From: a virus
Strand: one strand, 5' to 3'
Length of the DNA stretch: 26,121 nucleotides
IMG/VR virus record: IMGVR_UViG_3300034198_013009
Coordinates: 1-26,121 of that record
Positions 6,701 through 26,057 of this stretch are shown here, piece after piece. The notes under the pieces are model-generated. The model ran no database searches, was not told the origin of the DNA, and was given only the letters and a program-made list of their open reading frames with translations. Each line of letters starts with the position of its first letter. The stretch's first letter is position 1. Both the position numbers and the translations under genes were made by a program.

Positions 6701-9237
6701 GCCTCAGCAGAGATTTCTTTCCAATCAACTTTTTGTCCTGCCGATACCTGTGCCGCAAGTTCTCCTGTGGCTTCTGCCAAGGGGTCAAATATAGCACGTT
6801 CTGCTACTTGAGTACCTACTTTTGCAGCTCTGCTTGCAAGTATGCTTGTTGGCTTAAATACTTTACCGGCAAGGTTTCCTGATAAGTAATCCACTACAGC
6901 AATTGGAATACCTCTTTTTATTCCTCTTTCACTTCCTTGTGCCCAAACAGCATCATCACTAAGACCTTCCGCTACTTGGTTCGGGTCATTTACATCATAA
7001 CCTTTTTCTCTCATCACATCAAGTACAGAATTGGTATATTCCATAGCTAAACTCGTAGCCGCCATACCTGTTCTAAATCCTTGAACTGCTCCCGCAATAG
7101 CTCCACCCGGAGTAGATACTATCCCTGTTGGACCCGCAAGAAACCCTGTTGACCCAATAGCTGCTCCTGTTCCCGCTCCAACCGCTGTACTACCGGCTAC
7201 TATCTTCATACCGTAAGGTAAGATTTGACTAAGACTTGTACCTGCCATAGTCAAAGCCAATTCAAAAGGATTATCTAAGAACACATCAAATCCTTCGGCA
7301 GCCCCTGAGGCTTGTTGCCAACGAGACATTACTCTACTTTGTTTTCCTGACTGATTAGTTAGATTATCTACAATGATTCTTGCAGCCTCTTCTTTATCTG
7401 TTTTGCTATTCACATCCTTTATTCCTAATGTAAATGCCAATATCTGCTGTGCTGCATTTCCATTCTTATAAGCATCGCTTACAGCATTAGAAAATCCTGA
7501 CCAATTGTCCTCAAACTCTCCTTGGATTTGTTTGTTTGCTTTTGCATCAAAATATGTTTTTGCATTCTCATATTTTTTTGCAGCATAATCCTGAGTTAGT
7601 TTTAAATCTTGGTAATTTTTAACCAACTCATCCTTCAAAGCCGCATCCTCAGAATTTTTAGGAACCACTGTATTTATTTTGTCAATAGATACACCAAAGC
7701 TATTTAAAGATTTTACATCAATATCAGCCTTCTGTTTCTTGGCATCTGCGTTAATTTTAGCAGCTTCTTGTGCTACTAAATTTGACTTCTTATCTAAGTA
7801 CAGGTCAAAATCTTCTCTTGCTTTTTCAACTTTTCCCTCAGTAATAAAACCTGAATCAAAAACTTGACCTCGCAATGCTTCTTCTTGTTTTTTGTACTTT
7901 TCTATTAATTTGTCAGTATCTGAACGCATTTTACCATTAATAACAAGGTTAGGATATTTTTTTGCCTCAGGACCGCCTGCATATCCTTTTTCCAAGAAGT
8001 CAACCATATCTCTAACTTTGATATACTCATCGTATGTTTTTTTATTGGACATATAGTCAATACCACGGGCTTTATAAAATTTGTCAGCTTCCAAATCTAC
8101 AGGGCTAACATCTTTCCAAGAACCTTTAGCAAAAGCCTTGGCTTCTTTATCTGTATTGAAGTCAAATACCTCTCCTCTTTCTCTTGCTCTTTTTACAGCT
8201 TCTTTAAATGGAAGCTCCTCCCAAGTTTTTGGGTCCGAAGAATAGTTGTTTGGGTCTTTAGGGAATAGAGTAGGAACCACTTTATATTTACCATCTTCTT
8301 CAAAAGAAGTAAACTTTACAGTAGATATAGTTCCATCAGGATTTAGCCTTCCGTTTTTACGAAGTTTTTGTGCTTGAACAGATTTAGACAATAAGTCGCC
8401 TGTAATAGGTGCGGCTATAGGAACAGCGTTTTCGCTTATAAATGATTTTAATTTATTTGATGCTTCTACATCTCCTCCTGAAGTCCAATTATCTAAGTCA
8501 ATCTCTATAGATTTTTTACCATCTAAAGTTTTTGCAATAATCTTATCAGTACCAAAGCCTGTTTCTTCAAAGTTAATTCCAAACTTAGAAAATTTTTGTC
8601 TCAATGTAACTATGGCATCTTCCTCAGTTTTTGCTATAAGATTAGAATCTATTGCATTAAGAGATTTTAAAAACTCAGGAGCTGACTTTAAACTTTTATT
8701 TAAAGCCTTAGACTCTTTTTGTTGCCTAACTTCTTCTTCAGCCTCTAATCCTTGTCTTCTTTTGGTTTCCTGACTAATTGCAACAGACTCTTTAAATTTC
8801 TTCTGTTGATTTTCAATGAATCTTTCTTGGTCTGTTTTATGAAAGTTAATTTTCTTTAAATCAGCCGCAGTAAAATTTTTCATTTCAGGCATTGCCTGTT
8901 TTACCTCATCTCCAAAAGTTGAGGCTGTTCTTTTAGTAGGAGTAGTAGCCGATGAACCATCTTCCGAAGACGAATCCATAGTAGTTTTTTGGTCCTTTCG
9001 AGGCGTGTCTGATACCGAAAAAACTTTTTTTTTTGAAGCAACAGGTTGCCCACTAACCCCCATTAAAGTTTTATATTCGTCAATGGTTTTAGTATATCCA
9101 TCGCTTACAAAAGCATCATAAGAATCTTTTAGTGCGTTTGGATTAGTGGCTAATAATTTTTTATATTCTTCAAGGCTTTTTGTATATCCTTGAGCAACGA
9201 ATAAATCATACGAATCTTGGATTGCTTCTTCGTTCAT
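742..9237 (-). CDS. Giant internal virion / ejection protein (2831 aa, T7 gp16-like position)
   Basis: This is the last and largest gene of the late block and most likely a capsid-packaged protein ejected with the DNA. Visible parts, approximate residues: two copies of a DSYD.FV..GYTK..(E/D)EYK module at 7-58; a basic, Lys/Gln-rich helical region at 110-200; a module at 295-375 (GTISTVKFTS ... VVPTLFP ... EAVKRARERGEVFDF) of a type that recurs in large phage virion proteins; a Gly/Ala-rich hydrophobic stretch at 655-735 that could insert in membranes; low-complexity linkers with a 12-residue repeat at 1537-1560; an alpha/beta region at 1325-1465; a long helical region at 1590-1800; more hydrophobic helices at 2320-2360 and 2535-2570; and a basic C-terminus at 2710-2780 ending in an FGSKxFG-repeat tail. 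I saw no lysozyme, protease or RNA polymerase DxDGD motif. The start at 9237 follows an A-rich leader 5 bases after the previous gene. The role is inferred from size, composition and synteny. Confidence 0.7.
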   Translation of the reverse strand: MNEEAIQDSYDLFVAQGYTKSLEEYKKLLATNPNALKDSYDAFVSDGYTKTIDEYKTLMGVSGQPVASKKKVFSVSDTPRKDQKTTMDSSSEDGSSATTPTKRTASTFGDEVKQAMPEMKNFTAADLKKINFHKTDQERFIENQQKKFKESVAISQETKRRQGLEAEEEVRQQKESKALNKSLKSAPEFLKSLNAIDSNLIAKTEEDAIVTLRQKFSKFGINFEETGFGTDKIIAKTLDGKKSIEIDLDNWTSGGDVEASNKLKSFISENAVPIAAPITGDLLSKSVQAQKLRKNGRLNPDGTISTVKFTSFEEDGKYKVVPTLFPKDPNNYSSDPKTWEELPFKEAVKRARERGEVFDFNTDKEAKAFAKGSWKDVSPVDLEADKFYKARGIDYMSNKKTYDEYIKVRDMVDFLEKGYAGGPEAKKYPNLVINGKMRSDTDKLIEKYKKQEEALRGQVFDSGFITEGKVEKAREDFDLYLDKKSNLVAQEAAKINADAKKQKADIDVKSLNSFGVSIDKINTVVPKNSEDAALKDELVKNYQDLKLTQDYAAKKYENAKTYFDAKANKQIQGEFEDNWSGFSNAVSDAYKNGNAAQQILAFTLGIKDVNSKTDKEEAARIIVDNLTNQSGKQSRVMSRWQQASGAAEGFDVFLDNPFELALTMAGTSLSQILPYGMKIVAGSTAVGAGTGAAIGSTGFLAGPTGIVSTPGGAIAGAVQGFRTGMAATSLAMEYTNSVLDVMREKGYDVNDPNQVAEGLSDDAVWAQGSERGIKRGIPIAVVDYLSGNLAGKVFKPTSILASRAAKVGTQVAERAIFDPLAEATGELAAQVSAGQKVDWKEISAEALGGLGNNSSNMAINTYRGIKNNSNLEIANKLTDASFVGTESASDSRISSWANNMHQLGKIDADTNQRIQENVGLKRDAREALSVGENKNKIKPAVLVRTMELMSAKEELTSSTNRREIYSDKIKEINQELAVIADTKELAPEESSVDLSKTLGTTKKGVAEYMIDGVRYTKEQFIEKTEGMTARRLLRSALGVKNDQETGVKIQEIIKEKTNSQLTEDELSNLLNEEEDAIQEPTTNESVLRTKEAGVGLQGVVEGNTQPQAITEETITNAKPQEDLTIVESEDGFKIFNDKTNLYEEGTDERGIAPSYATREEAEAKLDEIVSSKTQPTTQTIGSDPNTSIDVVDDYNTMIKQFRDKNKEITVLVRDNEITNEEANSLKIELRKNLKQAQKIKENGQPTETVNVEAPKTTSVKDVSVLITPATVRGFNPITKKIKALSLKYDKLVKQFSKDKNPKVLEQIKKTESQITDVAKQEIIDAVADIKGVEVTFKDTNRGLWDGKFEPSFNMNLSISPDADTQKVSDMLYDFSEKYSQDAFILETESELHDEWINGNVDMPLTEFYDNDLMHYPKIIYTFAEPITDEQVADLSVSLENEGVDAFSINNNQVEVSVITFLPENNNLTKDEQYNEKLKDFQSKSSATANAIGQTLGSNALDGHNVIIKKSSYQGAINEGTEDQTRQYDRSNVLEAFQEPTTKVEETTSEEPTTKVEETTSEELGTQGLSEVELPGYDRMMSIVDGITQKVLKERGGTNERAFQAALDYLQQDSKVYENATDVQREALVRQLRKQFGIKEKSAPSVARILGRLRDIRKVIMTERVALNKQFKDQIRGGKYAVKAVKEATQTLIKEIRDLRKLGKINKIQEQAILNRLGNTNVLSEKSTRRLIDYVTKVYNNADYAQRLTDAQKLRKKIRSLSRDKTKDANLRDLAAKFGKLDPSLAKNIEVYNDMAAKIKEAVDGSKISGQKVRFANTVNIQDATEYINVEEKSQANIIRDERIADIQSLMGVDASTFTEAEMMALLEEDKPMTDKNEGIVRDTINTAFEIYSAMIQNSIDTGVDAFTGEEVEYTKREKEIISKFMAMDPKNMTTKNALAAVDALANFIENKSTASMDAVTSIYEGNNNTKIVLRKGIKAIALRKFFFKQLGRTFGEQTTNLNILFEKMFKGFNRGGVVQDLMGLTKLINRKAYAQTQSNNIINDYVKQFYNKDVRPNGQKFNTAENNTERGMAAFMIRNVIGTEQEMQIEFGRRKGLIDQSIAALRKGNEQEQKKAELYQKVYDKVIADANDIQGIKDNTDPKNLEAIYFWHKQWDNQFDRLADVALNVYNKNLDRDLNYSPDKYVRLESAPQDVDLTNSDSAFINNTNGVLYNKKTGVLMDTTGTNTLPMNGNKNVLSYIDLSFDRNNSNSMYDALVDIETAAPIRQVQAFLNSENFSKIVPNPEDAKLLTNRVQLYVANTRNKNPYSNDELSKAVRKLNKIATLGVGQALGGPTQVFKQFVPVAVNTWVNAGTFSLTASFNSDFNNWISQSGYAIANRGIESQAEVESINKLIEEAANSNAKRAMELIEEANRKWLKTFLVRPDVAVARASFKAYYEKSLKQQGKDYKNIDYSDHPLNETAANYAQRMVDRQQNVSDHDLAGSLFSSKETGKQVLTKIFMAFASFRMNQSSRLGADLSTLGYWNVSTKEDKIVAARSLAGYAAEMATFRAMSAGIAILTGYAAASMMGKGETDDEEKKRRDGVLKGQATSVVTDVFSPLPILDKIVQTGAANFLAGVQDALDMDEEDRLSLYSTKPEEFVKFLGMYGIAPDRAMQLFGMVKLWATGKYKDDFNKEHEISERDRKALGVLLGPAFLTNIGVFPPEIAGAIRGSIKMAKKKQTSRDEKLAKEDRELGKELLQGYENREDMKRYDPKLYEETFGEKSDWYENHIDEKEAKAIEKAKERDAKDDMNNYVPKDKKGFGSKEFGDKGLGESKSSKSSFGSKKFGQ
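4552..4623. repeat. Perfect 36-bp tandem duplication inside the giant gene
   Basis: Two identical 36-base units (4552-4587 and 4588-4623) lie head to tail, and the next seven bases begin a third copy. The unit is in frame and encodes a 12-residue Thr/Glu-rich stretch (EPTTKVEETTSE) twice, in a disordered-looking linker of the 2831-residue protein. The lack of any mismatch suggests a recent duplication by slippage. Confidence 0.9.
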
Positions 9238-11867: not shown

Positions 11868-12272
11868 TTATAATATTTTTATCATTTCACTTGTATATCC
11901 TTCTCCTTTTGACCAACCTAAATCCTCATAGGTTTTTATAAGGCTTCTGTTTTTAATCAAAGCATATCCATATTTACTTCCTGTGTTCTTACAAATATTT
12001 GTAAGAGACTCTATCAATAATTTTATAGCTTCTCTTCTTTTATCTTTTATCCTGTACTCTTTATTGGATATAATCCAATCTACCCAAGCCACTTTTGAAT
12101 TTGTAATGTATATGAATCCTGCGCATATAGGCGTATCTCCATCGTAAACTATCACTCCTCCTTTACCATCATCGGGTAAAAAATCTTTAGCAGGCGGTTC
12201 CCAATTCCATTGCTTCCACCATTCTACAAGAATATTTTCGTAATCAGTATCGTAAAGGTTTCTAATTTCCAT
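11868..12272 (-). CDS. GNAT-like protein in T7 gp13 position (134 aa)
   Basis: The protein has the layout of a GNAT acetyltransferase domain. A strand pair spans residues 39-58 (VIVYDGDTPICAGFIYITNS). A motif A-like strand follows at 62-74 (AWVDWIISNKEYR). A helix at 78-94 leads to a motif B-like end at 108-120 (NRSLIKTYEDLGW). The acetyl-CoA P-loop, normally R/QxxGxG/A, is replaced by a charged stretch without glycines (KDKRREA, 76-82), so catalysis is doubtful. Known family context: T7 gp13 (138 aa) is of the same size, lies immediately before the internal core genes 14-16 and has been linked to a GNAT-like fold. The same order is seen here. It may act in assembling internal proteins into the head. 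An active acetyltransferase modifying phage or host proteins is the alternative. Confidence 0.65.
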   Translation of the reverse strand: MEIRNLYDTDYENILVEWWKQWNWEPPAKDFLPDDGKGGVIVYDGDTPICAGFIYITNSKVAWVDWIISNKEYRIKDKRREAIKLLIESLTNICKNTGSKYGYALIKNRSLIKTYEDLGWSKGEGYTSEMIKIL

Positions 12273-12293: not shown

Positions 12294-13109
12294 TTAAGGG
12301 AAACTTTTCATTACATTCGATTCAGCTGCAAATAATTCTATTTTACTCGTATAATCGTTCTGAAGTGTAAATGTACAATAGTGTCCTAAAACTCCGTGAG
12401 ATTCTGCAACTGAATTTTTGATATATAAGAAATAAGAAGTTTGTTCGGTTATAGGCGTTGTTCCCGGAATAGATGTGTTTATTGTTAATTGGTTTAATCC
12501 GTTTGGATAGTCAATTGAAATAGCCGTTACCTTACCTGCAAGTAAAGGTACAGTTGAAGGAGAATCAAAAAAATAAAGTAAATCTCCAATACTAATTATA
12601 TTACCTACAGCTACTAATGGTTCAATAGAGAATTTAATCACATTACCTCCTGTAACTTGATAACTTCTTCCGATACCATTTAAACTCCTTAGTGCTAATT
12701 GTCCTATATCGTTATTCCTAACAAATGCAAAATAAGATTGTTCTTTTTTGCTAAACCAACCTTGCTCGATAAATCCTGAGAATTGCAAATCAGTTTCTAA
12801 AGTAACACCCCAAGGCGCATCTCCTTGTATATTAATGGTTTTAAATAACTTGTTTTCAAGTACAGAGTTGTTGAATACACTCGTAATCAAAGATGGTGTA
12901 TAAGCCCTTGGAGAGGGATTAAGCTCATCTACTCGATTCCACCAAGGTTGATAGAATGTATTTCTATTTTCATTTACATTGTGTTTATAAATATTTCCTC
13001 CTTTAAAAGTGTAGAAATAATTATTCATTCCAATCATCCAATCAGGATTATAAGAATAGTAAGATACCCAACCGGCAACTCCTTCGCTATATGATAAAGT
13101 ATAATTCAT
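12294..13109 (-). CDS. Tail-associated structural protein, nozzle C-terminal-domain-like (271 aa)
   Basis: A beta-rich protein without signal peptide or membrane segment. Its first 60 residues (YSEGVAGWVSYYSY, PDWMIGMNNYFYTFKGG, IYKHN) resemble, from memory, the pattern found in the last part of long nozzle ('stabilisation') proteins of crAss-like and marine podoviruses, where a 'W.S.y.y.P.....NN.FYTFk.G' segment is normally fused to the rest. Here it is a separate gene, two genes downstream of the 1558-residue nozzle protein. The middle (residues 65-160) has alternating strand-like segments, and the end (200-271) is Ser/Thr-rich. It starts three bases after the 122-residue gene stops. A structural tail role is likely from context. 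A split-off nozzle domain is my inference, and a receptor-contact role is possible. Confidence 0.55.
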   Translation of the reverse strand: MNYTLSYSEGVAGWVSYYSYNPDWMIGMNNYFYTFKGGNIYKHNVNENRNTFYQPWWNRVDELNPSPRAYTPSLITSVFNNSVLENKLFKTINIQGDAPWGVTLETDLQFSGFIEQGWFSKKEQSYFAFVRNNDIGQLALRSLNGIGRSYQVTGGNVIKFSIEPLVAVGNIISIGDLLYFFDSPSTVPLLAGKVTAISIDYPNGLNQLTINTSIPGTTPITEQTSYFLYIKNSVAESHGVLGHYCTFTLQNDYTSKIELFAAESNVMKSFP

Positions 13110-13112
13110 TTT

Positions 13113-13481
13113 TTATAAAATACAACTTGTTGAAATTAAACTAACGGTAACTCCGCCTGTTATAGATGTAATACTGCCTTGTTTAGCACAAAAATCTATT
13201 GTTTCTCCTGCCAAAACATTTATGAATGTTGACGCTCCTATACAGTCAGTATAATAAACAACACCTCCTGTGCCTCCTGCTACAGCTTCATAAGTAACAC
13301 AAGGACAGGTAGAAGAACAGGCTACTGAAGTTAAAAGAAACCCACCTACTTGTTGTCTTGATATTATTCCATCTGAATAAAATCCATCAGGAGCTAATGT
13401 TAATAATGATGAATCCGAATATACTGATATAGCACTAGCAAAATCAGGTACGCTCATATAAAAAGTTGAACTTATTGCCAT
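13113..13481 (-). CDS. Small Cys-containing tail protein with GFYS module (122 aa)
   Basis: Residues 7-60 carry a module (FYMSVPDFASAISVY, then APDGFYSDGIISR, then GGFLL and a CxxxCxC cluster) that aligns with the C-terminus of the neighbouring 1558-residue protein. Residues 70-122 form a second, beta-strand-like unit (VVYYTDCIGASTFINVLAGE, then TIDFCAKQGS) of a type I know from Bacteroidota phage structural proteins, in which two cysteines flank a V.AG.T segment. Six cysteines in 122 residues is high for a phage structural protein. There is no signal peptide. It lies 11 bases after the nozzle gene and 3 bases before the 271-residue gene, so it is part of the same transcript. A tail-surface or host-contact role is inferred. 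Confidence 0.6.
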   Translation of the reverse strand: MAISSTFYMSVPDFASAISVYSDSSLLTLAPDGFYSDGIISRQQVGGFLLTSVACSSTCPCVTYEAVAGGTGGVVYYTDCIGASTFINVLAGETIDFCAKQGSITSITGGVTVSLISTSCIL

Positions 13482-13492
13482 ATTTTTTTTAA

Positions 13493-16400
13493 TTAAATTG
13501 TATCACAATTACAACACACATCCAAAGCACTTTCTCCATAACATAAAGTTATTGCATAAAAACAAGGTTCGCAAGATTGCTGTGGTAATAAAACTCCATC
13601 TCTTAATTCTCTTACTATACCTCCTTGAGAATAAAATCCATTAGCAGATGGATAAATTAAATTTGCATCTTGAAATATACCTGTAGCTTCGCTAAAATTA
13701 GCTCCATTTAAGTAATAATTACCTAAAGCACAATCGCAACAAGGATTTCTATCATTATTTTCAACAAAACATAATTCAGTTAATGTAGCTATTCTTAAAT
13801 CCCAAATCAAATAAAGATATGTACTGCCTGTATAAGGAACTATAAAGTCTGTGTAATACAAAGGAGTTGAACCCGAATTAGGAGTAGCTACCGTAGAAAG
13901 ACCTAATAAAGTATTTATATCTCCACTTGTATTATCATAAAATCTTCCGCTTTTTAAATATCTAAATTTATTTTTAGTTATATTAAACACAAAATCATCA
14001 GGAAAAATAGCATTTGTAAATAATCTCATAGTACTAAAATTAGGAGGGAATCCTCCTGTTCCTACAGGTCCTGAAGTTATATTATATCTCGATACAATAG
14101 GACTTACTGTTCCACTTGATAGCTGTACTAAATTGGATAAAAGAGGACCTATAAATGTATCATTTGTATATCTATACTGAGTATGTATTGTTTGACCTGC
14201 CTCTGAATTGTTATTTACCACAACTTCAACTATATACAAAGTATCAGCAAGAGGACAACTTAATACTACTGAAACTACCATATCTCCGGTATATCTTAAA
14301 GTAATAGTAGCTGTTTCTACAGATATGTTATCTTTATTAAAATTTCCACTTCCATTACTATTTACTAATCCTGAAGAAGTTGAACTTCCATTATACTCAG
14401 TTAATATCTCAAGAGTCGCTCCTTCTTGAATATTTGTAAATATCCAATTTATAGCTGTTTGTCCAACAGAAGAGCCTAAATTAACACAATAAACCAAATC
14501 TTTAATAGATTCAGAACCTATAGATAAATTAAAAGTTTGAGATGTTCCACAAGATATACATTGAGGAGTTACAGGTAATGGTTGGTCATTCATAGATAAC
14601 ACATACTCATTCATATAAGGGTCAAATCCTCCAAGCTTTTGATAATTGAATGATTCATTGAATTTATCTCTAAACCAAGTTCTCATATTTTGGTTTGATA
14701 TAGCTGTCAACTGTTCATTTTGGTCTTCTCCTCCTTTGAGTTGAATAACGGCTCCACGTTTAGCATCTGTAAAAAATCTATCGTAACCCCACTGAACATA
14801 ACTCTCAGGATTAAAACTAATACCATACTTTTCAGTACGTGCTATTTGCGTTCCTAATACTGCAGGAGTAGCTGTAATTATACCTCCGGCACTTGCATCC
14901 GATAATAAGTTTTTCTCCGCTAAAACGTAAGATATTTTATCTTCTTGTAAAGTAAGTACATCGGTATTTCTACCATCCAATAACATTATATCTCCGAATG
15001 ATGCTTCGCAATGTTTGAAGTTTGATAACCCCATATTAAACTCGTTGAGTTTATTTATATTACTCTCTCCGTTATAAATTCCGCTATAAGTAATATCAGA
15101 GAATCTATCAGCTTCTTTATAGTCTTGAGCAGCAACAGTAGTAACTCTTTCTCCAAAATTAAAAGACCTGCCTATAATTGAATCACGTATCTTATAACTT
15201 TCTGCTCCATTTCCAAAAGCAAAACAATTGTAAAACCCTGTATCTATAATTGCAGCTTGTCCTATATTAATATCTTGATTTTGAATATTTCCTTCGTGAT
15301 TACCATTGGCATCAATAGGAAGAGATAAATTGTTTTCAAAAAACACATCAGGCAAAGCATCAGATGGTTGAGTTTCAAATATAATAGTACTTATAGCTCT
15401 ATAAACTGTAAATTGCATATCAACAAACCATCTTCTATTATCAGCAGAAGCTCCTGAACAAGCCCACCCTGTAGTACAATTAAGCCAAAGTCTATTAGTA
15501 ACAGGGTCTCTCTCAAATCTAAGATACATTGTATTAAAACTACATAACCCCGGAGCTCCCAAACCCGGTATGTATTCAAAAGCAGCTCCTCCACATACGG
15601 TATTAGAAGGACTTTCTAATGTAACAGATACATTATCTCCATTCCACCAATCATACATATTATCATAATCTCTTGAGGCGATAAATTGAGTACTAAATAC
15701 GGCTTGTTGACATTCACAACTACTTCCAGTTCCTAATCTATTACCGTCTATAAAAATTTTTATTCTACTTCCTGCAGGAATAGAATAGTCTTCATATTCC
15801 CAAAGTGGATGCAAAGGGTCATATCCTACAGTTCTTTTAAGATTCATAGGATATTGCCCTAAAGGGCAACTATGGTCTCCAATACCTGCATAAACAAGAG
15901 GTCTTTCTAACCCCGGAGATACAATTGCATCAGGGTCTATAACAAGATTAAAAGAACTAGGGTTTAGTTTTATATAAAGTCCTGCTATTACAGTTACATT
16001 CTCTTTTGGAGTTATAAAATTATCCGCTTGAGATGTTTTCTCAAGAACAGTTGTGTATGTACAATTTATAGTAGGACCTGATGTGTCAGACTTAACCACT
16101 AATCTATCTCCGGTCTCAACTTTTCTCATATTCTCTCCCTCAATAAGAAACCAAACATTATTAGTATTAGGGTCTGTAAAAAAAATATTTGAGTAAATTG
16201 TTTCGTAATTCTCGTTATCAGGTTTGATTACAAATTTATACCTTGTAGCCCAAACAGGAGCCCTTTGAGTAGCAGGTATTGTAACTTGTATTGAGTTCTT
16301 GTTTGCAGAATTACCACAAGGTACAAATACTGTGTTGTTAAGACTCACTAATGCTGTAGTAGAACGATTAAATTCATCCATATATACGATACCAACCTCA

Positions 16401-18170: not shown

Positions 18171-19094
18171 TTATTTTATTATCTTGTCCATACCTCTTAA
18201 ATTCATTAAGAGTCTTCCCGGATGAATGTTACTGATTCTTATTTTTGCATTTCTTAGCAATGCCGTTCTATCTTTTCTTGCTCTTGCTATAACATATTCT
18301 TGAACATTAAACTTAGAGTTTAATATCTCATACTTGATAGCAGCGTAGATATATTGTTCAAACAACTTATTTACAGTAATAAGTGAGTTATTTCCTCCTT
18401 CCATACCATCAGATATATACTCAACAATACAAGTTTGTCCTGACATACTTGAATCAAAATTAATAACTCCTGCTTTTTTATCAATTTTAAAAGTAGGATT
18501 AAAATTTGCTGTCTCTGTATTTAAACCAAATGCAGTATTAAAACCATAATCAAAATACCACATACCATCCATATACCAACCCTCTTGACCGTGGAATTGA
18601 TTGCCTTGGTTTAAGTAAATGCTTTTTTTTAACTTCATTAACCTATCGTAGTCAATATCAGAGTATTGAGGTCTAAGGATATTACCATTTTGGTCAAACA
18701 ATATATTTGCTTGTTGGTCTTGTAAATAAGCATTAGACGATATAGCTTGAATGTTTTCTGTTAATGGTCTCAACCAACCGTCTTTGTACAAAGAAATGCG
18801 AACCCAGTTCACATAGTCCGAAGGAAGAATATATCTTAAAGAATCTGCAACACTTAACTCTAACACTTTAATTTCTTTAAAAGCATCATAATTAAGCTCC
18901 TGTATAGCTCTTTTTGCGTGAAAGATTACTTTATATCGTTCTTCATTATTTACTAATGAATGGTTTCCCGAATACATCAACAGGAAATTGTTAACTACAT
19001 CATCTAAGCTGACATATTGATAAGACCCCCAATTTGCATCTTGAGGGTTATTTCCATTATTGTCATAGTATTCGTATTGAGATATATATGCCAT
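18171..19094 (-). CDS. Tail tube / tail hub protein (307 aa, T7 gp11-like position)
   Basis: A soluble 307-residue protein of a family I know from crAss-like and marine Bacteroidota podoviruses, usually labelled tail tubular or tail hub protein. Typical segments are visible: YKVIFHAKRAIQELNYDAFK (53-72) followed by EIKVLELSVADS, then LPSDYVNWVRISLYKDG (94-110) and LRPLTENIQ. Near the end is a long helical region (RARKDRTALLRNAKIR, IHPGRLLMNLRG). The second half (180-240) is beta-rich and Gly-containing. It lies directly before the nozzle gene with one base between, matching the T7 gene 11-12 pair, whose products form the tube between portal and nozzle. Position and family pattern agree; the exact ring it forms cannot be told. 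Confidence 0.7.
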   Translation of the reverse strand: MAYISQYEYYDNNGNNPQDANWGSYQYVSLDDVVNNFLLMYSGNHSLVNNEERYKVIFHAKRAIQELNYDAFKEIKVLELSVADSLRYILPSDYVNWVRISLYKDGWLRPLTENIQAISSNAYLQDQQANILFDQNGNILRPQYSDIDYDRLMKLKKSIYLNQGNQFHGQEGWYMDGMWYFDYGFNTAFGLNTETANFNPTFKIDKKAGVINFDSSMSGQTCIVEYISDGMEGGNNSLITVNKLFEQYIYAAIKYEILNSKFNVQEYVIARARKDRTALLRNAKIRISNIHPGRLLMNLRGMDKIIK

Positions 19095-19106
19095 TTCTTT
19101 TTATTT

Positions 19107-20078
19107 TTATTGTTGCATACTGAATGTAGGTTGTTCGTGTTGTTGTTGAGCAGTACCAAATGCAGATACTTCAAACTCTCTAATTTCAACTCCAAAGTAC
19201 TCTAACATTTTTGTTACTATTTTGTAACCATCTTCATTTGGTAATTCAAAGTCTTGATAATCAAGTTGTGATTGGTCAAATACAGGTTCTCCACTTGTTA
19301 ATGTTATATAGGTCCATTTTGGAGTTTTAGGGTATCTAAAATAAACTGCTTGTACTTGACCTACACTACTTATAGTATTTGGATATATTTTAATTGATTG
19401 ACCTTCAAGAGTATATGATGGATAGAAATTTGATGGCTTTGTTAACGTAGAAGCATTAAGCATTGTTATTTTGCCAACACTAACTTTATCTGCTTCTTTA
19501 AATTCAGATGATTTTAATATTGTATAACCGTAAGAACTATTATTAGTTGGATTTATATTTGATGCTAAAAGTAATTTGGTATTTGATACTATTGATGAAA
19601 TAGTAGTAGAAAGTCCAATATTTCTATCGATAACAATGTCTCCTACCGATAAGCCATCAGATAAAAAAGTAGCTGAAGAATCTAATAATTCTAAACCAAA
19701 TGACATAAGTGCTGCGCCTTCTGCAAGTTTATTAGTATAGCATATTATTTTAAGTATATAATATGCATCATTACCTACAGTAGCAAGCGTAGGTACAGAG
19801 AAAATATTATTTTGTACATTTCTATCAAAATTTCTTAAATAATCAGTAACTAAAAATGATTCTAATGTTTCCGCAATAGGTTGCTCTACATCTGCATAAT
19901 CTGTTCCTGATACACGTTGATTTTCAGCATTTATAACTTTATTATAACTACTAAAATATTCTTCATATATCTCCATTTGAGCATTAGCAGCCACTAAGTT
20001 GAAATCTGAAGGAGATATATATCCATAATTATTTTTATTTAATATGGATAATACTGTGTTTCTAACTTCGTTTATCAT
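19107..20078 (-). CDS. Head-tail connector / ring protein (323 aa)
   Basis: The N-terminus (VRNTVLSILNKNNYGYISPS, then DFNLVAANAQMEIYEEYF; residues 5-43) and the C-terminal part (VQAVYFRYPKTPKWTY; FDQSQLDYQDFELPNEDGYK; ending in a Gln/His-rich tail) follow a pattern I recall from structural proteins found just after the capsid gene in crAss-like and environmental podoviruses. A helical N-terminal part (1-45) is followed by a mixed beta region. No membrane segment or enzyme motif is present. The gene follows a terminator and a promoter-like box and is followed after 12 bases by the tube protein gene. A connector ring between portal and tail tube is the best inference. It could equally be a tube component. 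Confidence 0.65.
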   Translation of the reverse strand: MINEVRNTVLSILNKNNYGYISPSDFNLVAANAQMEIYEEYFSSYNKVINAENQRVSGTDYADVEQPIAETLESFLVTDYLRNFDRNVQNNIFSVPTLATVGNDAYYILKIICYTNKLAEGAALMSFGLELLDSSATFLSDGLSVGDIVIDRNIGLSTTISSIVSNTKLLLASNINPTNNSSYGYTILKSSEFKEADKVSVGKITMLNASTLTKPSNFYPSYTLEGQSIKIYPNTISSVGQVQAVYFRYPKTPKWTYITLTSGEPVFDQSQLDYQDFELPNEDGYKIVTKMLEYFGVEIREFEVSAFGTAQQQHEQPTFSMQQ

Positions 20079-20992: not shown

Positions 20993-22438
20993 CTATCCGA
21001 AACGGAATAATACGAAGTTGTTTGCACCTAAAGTACATACACATCTTTCAGACAAGAAGTTAACCTCCATTGCATCTAAATCAGATGTTTGAGCACCACC
21101 GGCAGAACCAGTAATCCACGTTTTGTAACGTCTATCCTCAGCTTCAGAAGCACGGTATCTTACGTGTAAGAATGGTCTCTTAGCGTTTTTACCCATAATT
21201 TGGTCATACACTGAAGTAGAACCTGCAGGAACTAAAAGCCCTGTAATTGTACCTGTAGCAGTAGATTTAGTTTGATTTAAACCACCTCTCATTGTTGGGT
21301 CGTTCAAATATTTCCAATCAGACTTGTAGAAATCATAACCTCTACGGAATCCTGTGAAACCTAAGTTTAACGCCATTGCAACATCATTGTCAAACAAACC
21401 AAATGAAGCACCTTGAGCAGGGGCAGTACCACCTGTTCCTGCAGTACCTAAACCATTCAATCCTGCTAACATATTGTCGATGTCAAAAGACAATCCACGA
21501 TTTACAAACAATACATTTTCTTCGATAGCACCTTGTTTATCTAAACGAGAAACAATTGTATCCCAATCAGCTAAAGTAGTTGGTGTACCACCACCCCAAA
21601 CATTTCCTCTTTTGTTTACAACATAGAAGATACCTTCAGAACCACCTTGTCCTGTACCTCCAAGGTAAGTAGATGCGCCTGAACTTGTTTCAGCAGGAAC
21701 TGCTTCAATCATTGCAGTTTCAATATAGTCTTCAAAACGTAAACGAGTTTCGTGCTCTGATTTCAAATACCACAAGTAACCTGTAGCACCGTTTTCAGTA
21801 GTAACTTCAACCCATCCGATTTGAGCCATATCAGAACCATTAACAGAATATTTATCTTTTAAGATAATAGGCTTGTTAGAGAAGATTTCGTCTTCTGCTT
21901 CTAATGAACCTGACATTCCTGAAGTTCCTTTTTTAAACTCAGAACCATAAATAAATACAGTACAAGTACTATTAAGTGCAAAAGCCTGTCCTCCTGCTTC
22001 GTAGAAAGCTACTGTAAAAGTAGTTGCAGAATCAACAGTTTTAACGATTGCTTTGTTGTAAACACCTGTAGAGTTGTTTTGAATCAATACAGTTTGATTT
22101 GGTCTAATTGCGATGTAAGCAACACCTGAATCAGCTACAGTAAACTGAGCACTAGATGCTGCTGCTGCTCCTTCCGCATTTACGCTTGTGTATTTGATAT
22201 GAAGACGACCTTGTTCTGCCCATTTGATTTGGTCAGAATTAGAAGGCATTTCAGCTCCTACCATTCTCAAGAATGATGCGATTGTACGATTTCCATAACG
22301 CTCAAATTCTTTTTCATAAGTATCAGGAAGATACTGAGTTAAGAAGTTGAAGTTAGTAATGTAATTTGTAATTGTAGCTACTTGCTCCGCTGCCGGTTGC
22401 AATTGATAAGTAGGCGAATTTAATAAAGCACTTGCCAT
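20993..22438 (-). CDS. Major capsid protein, HK97 fold (481 aa)
   Basis: The protein fits the crAss-like type of HK97-fold major capsid proteins. An N-terminal arm and helix (FNFLTQYLPDTYEKEFERYG, residues 30-49) are followed by FLRMVGAEMPSNSDQIKWAE (56-75). A beta-rich insertion (84-175) looks like the extra domain of this family. The P-domain-like core (180-310) includes LRFEDYIETAMIEAVPAETS. A Gly/Ala-rich loop lies at 324-345, and GFRRGYDFYKSDWKYLNDPT at 363-382. The C-terminus (425-481) carries HVRYRASEAEDRRYKTWITG and a beta end. It follows the scaffold candidate by 19 bases and is followed by an intrinsic terminator, fitting the most abundant late product. It uses TAG as stop. The leader is A/T-only without a Shine-Dalgarno sequence. 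Family identification is from remembered pattern and gene order. Confidence 0.85.
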   Translation of the reverse strand: MASALLNSPTYQLQPAAEQVATITNYITNFNFLTQYLPDTYEKEFERYGNRTIASFLRMVGAEMPSNSDQIKWAEQGRLHIKYTSVNAEGAAAASSAQFTVADSGVAYIAIRPNQTVLIQNNSTGVYNKAIVKTVDSATTFTVAFYEAGGQAFALNSTCTVFIYGSEFKKGTSGMSGSLEAEDEIFSNKPIILKDKYSVNGSDMAQIGWVEVTTENGATGYLWYLKSEHETRLRFEDYIETAMIEAVPAETSSGASTYLGGTGQGGSEGIFYVVNKRGNVWGGGTPTTLADWDTIVSRLDKQGAIEENVLFVNRGLSFDIDNMLAGLNGLGTAGTGGTAPAQGASFGLFDNDVAMALNLGFTGFRRGYDFYKSDWKYLNDPTMRGGLNQTKSTATGTITGLLVPAGSTSVYDQIMGKNAKRPFLHVRYRASEAEDRRYKTWITGSAGGAQTSDLDAMEVNFLSERCVCTLGANNFVLFRFG

Positions 22439-23621: not shown

Positions 23622-26057
23622 TTAACGAGGCTCAAATTCTCCTAAATCAAACCCATCTAAACTGTCCTCATTTGATTCAAAATCTAATGGAGGTAAATTG
23701 TTTTTTCTTTGATTTATAAGTTTAGACTGTTGACTATTTTGAAGACTAACTCGTTTATCTTTAGCGTCTTCCTTCAGTTGGTCTCTTTTGGATATTTTGT
23801 TGACCTCCATATTATTTAGCTCTAAATTGTAATTAAACTCCTCAGCCATTAAGTGAGATTTTAATTCAGCTTCTACTTGCATAGTCTTAATATTGTACTC
23901 AGTTTCCATCTGTTTTAATTGCATTTTCATCTGCAATTGACCTTGCATATTTTGCATAGCCGACTGTGCAGCTAATTGCTGAGCTTGCATTTGTTGCTGA
24001 GAAACCATAGCTTGTTTTTGCATTTCCAACTTTTCTTCTCTATCTTGCTTCTTAACCCTTTTTTGTTTTAATAATTGATTTGCAAGTTTAAGATTTCTAA
24101 GCTCACGAATATCAATAGCATCTTCAAGATTAATATCCCCTTTAGATAATGCCATTTGTACGTTAGCCTCAAGTTGTGCTTTTTGTTCTTCATCAGGAGC
24201 AACTTCAATAAAAATACCAAAGTCATAAATGTAAAGGTCTGCAATATCTCCTAAAATAGAAACATTGTATTTACCTATCTGATTAATAAACTCATCTTTG
24301 AAGTCAGAGTATTCTAAAATATCTGCAATTCTATAAGTTAATGCTTCCGACATTGAGCGATAGATGTATAATCCACCATCAAGTATGTGTCGGGTAGCTG
24401 TATTTGAATTAAGAGCTGCTAATTTTTGTAATCCAACTAATGAATTAGGGTCAGGAGTAGAACCATCTCTTGCTTCATTTAATCCTGTTACCGTTCTAAT
24501 CATATCCATATAATGATTGTAATTGGTAATAAGCATTTGAGTTTTACCTGTTCCGTTGTTTGAGTTCAATTGAGTAATTGGAACTTTAGCATTATTAAAG
24601 TCTCCATCTTGAGTAAAACTTCTACCTACAACAGAACCTGTTTGAAAGTACAGTCTTAAAGCATCTTCAGGATTGTAAGCTGCTCCATTACCTAAATCAA
24701 CTTCGTTAAGACCATCGGCATCAATAAATACACCATCAGGAACAACACGATTTATTACTTGTTGTAATTTTAAATGAGTAAGTTGAATAAGGTCTGCAAA
24801 AGGTATCATTCTACGAACCAAAGACTCTATAGCTCCCTTATACATTCTTGGTGCACAGGCTATATAGTTTGGCAATGCGTGTTGTGATGCTGATTTTGGT
24901 CTAACCATATTCTCAGACATTTTCCACTGTAAAAGGATATTTGTTCCCATTACCATAATACCTTCATACCAAACATCAATAGTTTTTTCTATTTTCTCAA
25001 AATTACCTTCTTCCATCATTTGTGCAGGAGGATTAAAAGTATCATCCTTAGGTATTATTCGAGAACCACCATTGTCAAGAATTTTCTTCTTGTAAACTAT
25101 TTTCTTTGTGGTTTTATAGTTGAAGTACATCAAAGTACAAGTGTCTCTTGAGAATACACTATTCTCATAGAATTGAGCTACATTATAATAGTCATACCAA
25201 CCTTGACTGTATTGCGTTATTTCCTGTAAATCATCTTTGGTTAGTTTTTGGTCAATCTTCATTAATTCTGTAATTGCCATAGTTTTTATTTCTCCCCAAT
25301 AGAAACAGTCTCTAAAGTAAGGGTCTTCGGTATAACTATAAACAATATTTGCAGGGTCAACATAAGATATTTTAACTCCTGCTCCTTGAAGAAATTCGTG
25401 CTTAGCTATAGAGATACCAAGTACTGTAGCATCGTAATCAAGTCTTTTTCTAATGTCATCATAATGATTAACATCAAACATTGTATTTATAGCTTCTTCT
25501 TCTGCAATTTCAATAGCAGGTTTATAGTTTAGCTGCATATATAATGCTAACTCCTCATCAGTGTTTGGCAATTCTTCAGGGTCCATAACAAATGGGTCAA
25601 CTCCTGAAAGGTCTTTAATCTTTGTTAAGATTTCTTTACCTGCCATTTGAGATTCCATCATCTCCTGATATTTATTCCTTTTAGATTGAGACATTGCATC
25701 TTGTGCGTATGCTTTCACTTTAAACAATCTTTCAGACATTCCATTAACGACAATATCAACGAATTTTGGAATAACAGGAACCGGTGTCCAATCTAAGTTT
25801 AAATAAGACAAATCTCCATCAATAGCTAATTCATTTTTATATTTACCAACGGATTGTTCTCCTCTTGCATACAATCTCAATCTATGAAACTCTCTCCATT
25901 GACTGTAGTATCTACAATTGTTTCCATCCTTTCTGAACCATTCGTATTGAATAGCTTGACCAACTTGTAGCCCAAATTGTTGAGATGCTTTTTCCGCATC
26001 AGTAGCTAACTGACTTGGAAATGCTGATGATGTAATATCTATTGTTACGTTTTTCAT
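23622..26057 (-). CDS. Portal protein (811 aa)
   Basis: The N-terminal half follows the crAss-like portal pattern: REFHRLRLYARGEQSVGKYK, then NELAIDGDLSYLNLDWTPVP and IPKFVDIVVNGMSERLFKVK (within residues 56-120). A wing/stem core follows, including RMIPFADLIQLTHLKLQQVI and a TGLNEARDGSTPDPNSLVGL segment typical of portal helices. Residues 655-787 are a very long Gln/Met/Lys-rich coiled coil, fitting a barrel that reaches into the capsid. The end is acidic (FESNEDSLDGFDLGEFEPR), as I recall for this family. It forms the dodecameric DNA gate at the capsid vertex. The ATG overlaps the stop of the upstream frame by four bases (ATGA), which settles the start. The leader is A-rich without a Shine-Dalgarno sequence. 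Confidence 0.85.
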   Translation of the reverse strand: MKNVTIDITSSAFPSQLATDAEKASQQFGLQVGQAIQYEWFRKDGNNCRYYSQWREFHRLRLYARGEQSVGKYKNELAIDGDLSYLNLDWTPVPVIPKFVDIVVNGMSERLFKVKAYAQDAMSQSKRNKYQEMMESQMAGKEILTKIKDLSGVDPFVMDPEELPNTDEELALYMQLNYKPAIEIAEEEAINTMFDVNHYDDIRKRLDYDATVLGISIAKHEFLQGAGVKISYVDPANIVYSYTEDPYFRDCFYWGEIKTMAITELMKIDQKLTKDDLQEITQYSQGWYDYYNVAQFYENSVFSRDTCTLMYFNYKTTKKIVYKKKILDNGGSRIIPKDDTFNPPAQMMEEGNFEKIEKTIDVWYEGIMVMGTNILLQWKMSENMVRPKSASQHALPNYIACAPRMYKGAIESLVRRMIPFADLIQLTHLKLQQVINRVVPDGVFIDADGLNEVDLGNGAAYNPEDALRLYFQTGSVVGRSFTQDGDFNNAKVPITQLNSNNGTGKTQMLITNYNHYMDMIRTVTGLNEARDGSTPDPNSLVGLQKLAALNSNTATRHILDGGLYIYRSMSEALTYRIADILEYSDFKDEFINQIGKYNVSILGDIADLYIYDFGIFIEVAPDEEQKAQLEANVQMALSKGDINLEDAIDIRELRNLKLANQLLKQKRVKKQDREEKLEMQKQAMVSQQQMQAQQLAAQSAMQNMQGQLQMKMQLKQMETEYNIKTMQVEAELKSHLMAEEFNYNLELNNMEVNKISKRDQLKEDAKDKRVSLQNSQQSKLINQRKNNLPPLDFESNEDSLDGFDLGEFEPR

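Follow-up and report, generated by a model that had tools for sequence, protein, structure and literature searches.

Receptor-binding proteins such as tail fibres and tailspikes combine a conserved N-terminal anchor with an exchangeable C-terminal domain. In crAss-like phages the muzzle, which forms the gate, is thought to sense the cell surface, but no part of it is known to make the contact. In crAss001 it is the hexameric tail end, thought to contact the cell surface, and the tails are held together by disulphides (PMC10172136).

The locus described here lies on a 26,121-base stretch of a viral contig, hereafter the window, and resembles each of these systems in part. As in crAss001 gp44, the N-terminus of its long muzzle chain (MUZ) and the product of a separate gene (MUZC) match the muzzle families PF25731 and PF25729, but gp44 is one 1371-aa chain without the module named here GFYS, whereas in the window an additional gene separates two chains, the longer of which carries an extension. 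The muzzles of the elemo phages and of phi38:1 (Flavobacterium, Cellulophaga) are homologous along both chains, but are made as single chains devoid of extension and GFYS, which is the probable ancestral form. The Pachyviridae, represented by the Cellulophaga phages phi13:2 and phi19:3, have their muzzle split at the same place with a separate C-terminal gene, and their long chain ends in a domain of the family found in the variable part of GFYS proteins; unlike the window, they lack GFYS and their break holds no gene. With tail fibres and tailspikes the locus shares a constant N-terminal part and a variable, recombining C-terminal part, but its anchor belongs to no catalogued family, is encoded in the break of a divided muzzle and is also found joined to the muzzle itself, and binding is here only putative. 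In kind, receptor-binding proteins built of modules and crassvirus muzzles with insertions are already known. No description of a split muzzle with a clip gene in its break, or of the module family, was found in the libraries and literature searched, an absence that is no proof of novelty.

A muzzle encoded as two chains

The window is part of the region covered by the 60,648-base record IMGVR_UViG_3300032266_000396, with which the genes compared are 100% identical, except two at 99.6-99.7%. Every large gene is carried by the minus strand, from portal to tail (Table 1), and the order of portal, MCP, ring proteins and muzzle is the one expected around a crassvirus muzzle. Both muzzle genes score over the curated Pfam cut-offs: MUZ against crAss_MUZ (PF25731; E 4e-12, 45.5 bits for a cut-off of 27) and MUZC against crAss_MUZ_C (PF25729; E 2.5e-12, 47.5 bits for a cut-off of 27). 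MUZ also matches the virion structural protein family phrog_14478 (E 2e-209), and MUZC the last 35 positions of the crAss_MUZ model (1188-1222 of 1224).

Table 1. Features of the muzzle locus in the window (positions from the first base of the window)
Feature	Position	Strand	Basis
Portal	23622-26057	-	
MCP	20993-22438	-	
Two putative tail-ring proteins	18171-20078	-	Position and PHROG virion structural families; no named match
Muzzle (nozzle) protein, N-terminal chain MUZ, 1558 aa	13493-18169	-	Pfam, PHROG, alignment
Muzzle residues 1192-1465, clade-specific extension, predicted beta-sandwich (Ig-like) domains	13775..14596	-	AlphaFold; missing from single-chain muzzles
Cysteine cassette 1, LCFVENNDRNPCCDC, muzzle residues 1466-1480, end of the conserved part of the muzzle chain	13730..13774	-	
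Fused GFYS module, muzzle residues 1485-1536	13562..13717	-	BLASTP E 5e-8 to the free copy; HMM 85 bits
Cysteine cassette 2, LCYGESALDVCCNC, muzzle residues 1542-1555, end of the muzzle chain	13505..13546	-	
Free GFYS gene, 122 aa	13113-13481	-	ORF; equivalent place in all related loci
GFYS module of the free protein, residues 4-62, putative conserved N-terminal anchor	13296..13472	-	HMM 91 bits; AlphaFold pLDDT ~70-95
YTDC module of the free protein, residues 59-120, beta-rich	13122..13307	-	HMM
MUZC, muzzle C-terminal chain as its own gene, 271 aa	12294-13109	-	Pfam
134-aa gene	11868-12272	-	phrog_17252

Residues 1-1191 of MUZ align with the single-chain muzzles of phi38:1 and the elemo phages, as well as with the muzzle of phi13:2. 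In phi38:1 the position equivalent to residue 1191 is followed, after about six residues of the same chain, by the equivalent of MUZC residue 3, and MUZC aligns with residues 1199-1284 of the 1371 of crAss001 gp44 (E 2e-11). Since phi38:1, the elemo phages and crAss001 encode both parts in one chain, the muzzle of the window is split. Judging from these alignments, the 271-aa gene is the muzzle's own C-terminus, turned into a separate gene, and the muzzle is a protein that tolerates being made as two chains; the ring-joining, propeller, IG and C-terminal parts, elsewhere on one polypeptide, are shared in the window between two genes. The first-pass annotation had overlooked that the gene at 12294-13109 belongs to the muzzle, and with it the splitting of the muzzle around the GFYS unit. 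We read the window as carrying the muzzle locus, at the tail end, of a crAss-like phage whose muzzle is made as two chains.

The IG2/crass part of crAss001 gp44 spans residues 318-1021 (PMC10172136). The break, at about gp44 residue 1199, lies past it and so falls probably in the propeller or ring-joining region, and the extension present at this point may be placed sideways on the muzzle instead of at its very tip. This extension (residues 1192-1465) is absent from the phi38:1 and elemo muzzles; AlphaFold predicts it as all beta, mostly with pLDDT >85, the stretch 1210-1457 being confident and beta-rich, and a fold search with it returned only beta-sandwich matches of poor TM.

A second break interrupts the long chain of L016 (461-1543) and L021 (470-1543), at about residue 177 and with ~180 extra residues on the first piece, and that of L031 (3145-4251), at about residue 367. 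In L021, a glycosyltransferase-like gene (7119-8348) follows the GFYS gene in the place where MUZC is expected, and the contig runs on for 3 kb. The 134-aa gene stands 3' of MUZC in many loci and is replaced elsewhere by an unrelated-looking gene of 173-182 aa; in MW202828, a relative bears the annotation acetyltransferase subunit.

GFYS modules in the window and in related loci

Within the interval 13113-13640, the first-pass annotation had recognised a module shared by the end of the muzzle chain and by the next gene. Both open reading frames are as it described them, with the reservation that the end of the interval cuts the fused copy (13562-13717), and the likeness is real: BLASTP aligns muzzle residues 1484-1536 with residues 6-61 of the free protein (18/56 identities, 32/56 positives, E 5e-8), and an HMM based on the two copies together with their relatives gives 85 bits to the fused copy and 91 bits to the free one. 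The pairwise test that it had advocated gave a Smith-Waterman score of 87, compared with a maximum of 71 over 2000 shuffles (mean 39.2, SD 5.4; Gumbel p ~7e-6); similarity at the DNA level is weak, its score being reached by 9/1000 shuffles. As it had also noted, the copies are adjacent, one fused and one free, and the unit goes with the muzzle, the protein of the tail end.

The similarity between the copies ends at a CxxC. Beyond this point the free protein consists of another module (Y.YTDC.G...C), and a cysteine cassette, LCYGESALDVCCNC, which the free copy does not have, is found 3' of the fused copy; in L004 and L066, the free genes of 81 aa end in the same way. The cysteines of the first cassette (C1467, C1477, C1478 and C1480) are invariant over 11 aligned muzzles, and most muzzles hold at least one cassette (LC..........CC.C), although none was detected by that pattern in a marine subclade. 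The free protein of the window, with a variable part of only ~60 aa, is the shortest of the complete long forms, YTDC occupying the place of the more common domain.

AlphaFold models the free protein as two small beta-rich parts of uncertain mutual placement (mean pLDDT 85.7, pTM 0.51), and the muzzle tail with the fused copy with a pLDDT <50. The structural comparison proposed beforehand was fruitful in part only: the order of the short strands agrees between the two copies, which is consistent with one fold, and the pLDDT <50 of the fused copy precludes a confident fold comparison. The module has no match in Pfam, PHROGs, NCBIfam or PDB. A fold search with the free protein gave nothing in PDB and only uncharacterised viral proteins in BFVD, and a sequence search of solved structures gave no match for P0001, the muzzle, MUZC or the profiles of the last two. 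One free GFYS protein (L027 8001-8552, MW202828.1) was annotated by its submitter as a putative glycosidase, a label that found no support in Pfam, PHROG or the other searches.

The P0001 search retrieved one phage record as well as 24 related IMG/VR loci, and a search with the module alignment retrieved 144 stretches, 80 of which were fetched. In all 106 module-bearing loci (some sharing a contig), the module is on the muzzle or directly after it, and the order muzzle, GFYS, MUZC is kept in the 92/92 loci having all three (some again sharing a contig); MUZC was not found in 14 of the 106, mostly through contig ends, L021 being an exception. Fused and free copies, which the first-pass annotation had suggested looking for, both occur among these relatives. 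Counted over 80 distinct muzzles, four arrangements were found: one free GFYS gene, by far the commonest (69); a fused short unit plus a free gene (6: the window, L007, L039, L045, L047 and L056); the whole GFYS protein fused to the muzzle in one chain of 1904-1905 aa (3: L074, L077 and L079); and two free GFYS genes side by side (2: L004 and L066). According to a quick muzzle tree, the fused plus free state needs at least three changes, and L047 (fused) and L066 (two free) are sisters. Toggling of a stop codon was considered as a switch between fused and free forms and rejected: the muzzles of L047 and L066 are sisters, yet their units fall in different groups of the module tree. The module is absent from the isolates with intact or split muzzle, and no isolate with a GFYS gene was found; relatives of the phage have hosts among the Flavobacteriia, for instance Flavobacterium and Cellulophaga.

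In free proteins GFYS is always N-terminal, and conserved cysteines are abundant in it. Behind it, most free proteins carry a third domain, which is fused to the muzzle in L074, L077 and L079; its family is also found, without GFYS, at the muzzle end of phi13:2 and phi19:3 (E ~1e-15), where the annotation is virion structural protein. YTDC, for which an HMM built without the window finds the window copy at E 4e-9, is carried by the muzzle tail or by the free protein, depending on the phage, and by both in L012; it ends the muzzle in L008, L012, L017, L023, L027 and others. That the free protein acts on the muzzle is supported chiefly by these fusions.

Some occurrences lie outside this frame. 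The phage of L066 encodes, ~16 kb from its muzzle, a 238-aa protein (L115 1949-2665; G006:C1:26948-27664) with a degenerate GFYS (GYYSDG, E 5e-11) and with stretches resembling the cysteine cassette and YTDC; as this set of modules lies far from the muzzle, the module need not be muzzle-specific. A weaker GFYS module (E 1e-4) was found at L116 1396-1857. Finally, CP070801.1 (L108, L122, L123), deposited as the chromosome of a Candidatus Aenigmatarchaeota MAG, holds genes of a phage relative, namely an MCP 73% identical to that of the window, a GFYS gene, a MUZC gene and a muzzle fragment; a chimera created in assembly is more probable here than an archaeal host.

Conservation of the module and exchange behind it

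Twenty disjoint pairs of related phages were compared part by part. The part behind GFYS was less identical than GFYS itself in 17/20 pairs (sign p 0.003), that is, the N-terminal part is conserved and the C-terminal part faster, and it was less identical than the muzzle core in 15/20 (p 0.04). It did not differ from the muzzle tail, being less identical in 11/20 pairs only, so that the muzzle tail and the variable part of the free protein evolve equally fast.

The clearest case is that of L039 and L045, two near-identical phages between which the C-terminal part has been replaced. Their DNA is 100% identical through the GFYS module and slightly beyond, to base 7679; from there to the stop, successive 60-base windows are 65, 95, 100, 97, 88, 75, 72 and 85% identical, and identity is 100% again over ~1 kb 3' of the stop of the GFYS gene, as well as in MUZC. 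Behind GFYS dS reaches 0.51, against 0.013 in the muzzle core. The same contrast is seen in L008/L011 and, for the second half, in L055/L058, in both cases over a less uniform background; the opposite holds for L018/L022 and L059/L065, where dS is lower behind GFYS than in the muzzle core. The number of domains varies as well (552 vs 304 aa, 396 vs 298 aa) between phages whose muzzles are 95-97% identical. The GFYS module has a low dN, indicating constraint, and no codon-level positive selection was seen in the exchanged parts; as dN/dS is <1 there, the evidence is for allele replacement and not for point-wise positive selection.

From these comparisons, GFYS is best described as a conserved anchor, and the domain behind it as what is exchanged. 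The earlier expectation that such units diversify is thereby shifted: it holds for the neighbourhood, and the GFYS unit itself is the part that stays constant. The replacement was observed in relatives and not for the allele of the window, of which no close relative with a different free-protein allele was found among the loci compared; the free protein of the window being short and YTDC-bearing, what is seen in relatives is extended to it on the ground of homology.

Possible role of the free protein and competing explanations

The reading that we favour, and judge rather probable from sequence comparisons, is that of a split muzzle on which GFYS docks an exchangeable recognition domain. MUZ and MUZC would fold together, and the GFYS module would be a docking clip holding the variable domain on the muzzle extension, perhaps with the involvement of the conserved cysteines. 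The variable domain would contact the host surface and be replaced by recombination, the homology arms being supplied by the identical GFYS module on one side and by the MUZC gene on the other. In the window, a short unit of GFYS and cysteine cassette, corresponding to the free 81-aa gene of relatives, would have become the C-terminus of the muzzle chain. Presence of the free protein in the virion is inferred from the fusions to the muzzle in L074/L077/L079 and phi13:2, and surface contact is plausible given the position of the muzzle at the tail end and its proposed contact with the cell (PMC10172136). The more specific picture of a three-part muzzle, in which two chains jointly complete a broken beta-propeller region and an exchangeable protein is clipped into the break by a dedicated 57-aa module, is put forward tentatively, as somewhat doubtful in its details.

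The module could instead serve assembly or capping, closing the broken muzzle or joining neighbouring subunits, with the variable domain as mere decoration. It is indeed the conserved part, rich in cysteines and always N-terminal in free proteins, and disulphides hold the tails of crAss001 (PMC10172136); but capping leaves unexplained why the domain behind the module is replaced between near-identical phages and why whole domains are gained or lost, and the module is absent from isolates whether their muzzle is intact or split. We regard it as unlikely. Still less credit can be given to the GFYS gene as a passenger in the break, either a mobile or selfish cassette or the debris of a longer insertion in the muzzle. 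Its modules shuffle freely and the muzzle is broken elsewhere too, apparently harmlessly (~177 in L016/L021, ~367 in L031), but the gene order is kept in every complete locus of a diverse clade, the low dN points to constraint on the module, and no mobility genes stand beside the GFYS gene within the window.

The first-pass annotation had explained the fused and the detachable unit by a recent tandem duplication in this genome. The two copies are adjacent and clearly homologous, and an older duplication of the unit must have occurred at some time, as L004 and L066 have two adjacent free genes. However, the copies of the window are only 28% identical to each other, the lowest of all comparisons (rank 70/70), whereas the free copy is 35-56% identical to other free copies (mean 46%; mean 36% to fused ones) and the fused copy 43-48% to other fused copies (mean 46%), so that each is closer to its counterparts elsewhere. 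In the module tree, which is weak with its 58 columns, both form long branches on opposite sides of a 95/89 branch, the free copy among free copies and the fused one on the side of fused and short copies. Forcing them together over these 58 columns costs 9.8 log units, which the AU test does not formally reject (p 0.088). The same fused plus free layout also occurs in four further distinct muzzles (L007, L039/L045, L047 and L056). These sequence comparisons largely refute a recent duplication, which appears very improbable.

For annotation, the split muzzle means that the 271-aa gene should be assigned to the muzzle and not treated as a separate protein. If the reading of GFYS as a clip for exchangeable domains is true, it provides a concrete candidate for the contact part of the muzzle, together with a natural experiment in the form of near-identical phages differing only in this domain. 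If the three-part muzzle is true as well, host contact would change at the gate itself, beside or instead of tail fibres, by the swapping of a short gene whose conserved start would be both clip and recombination arm.
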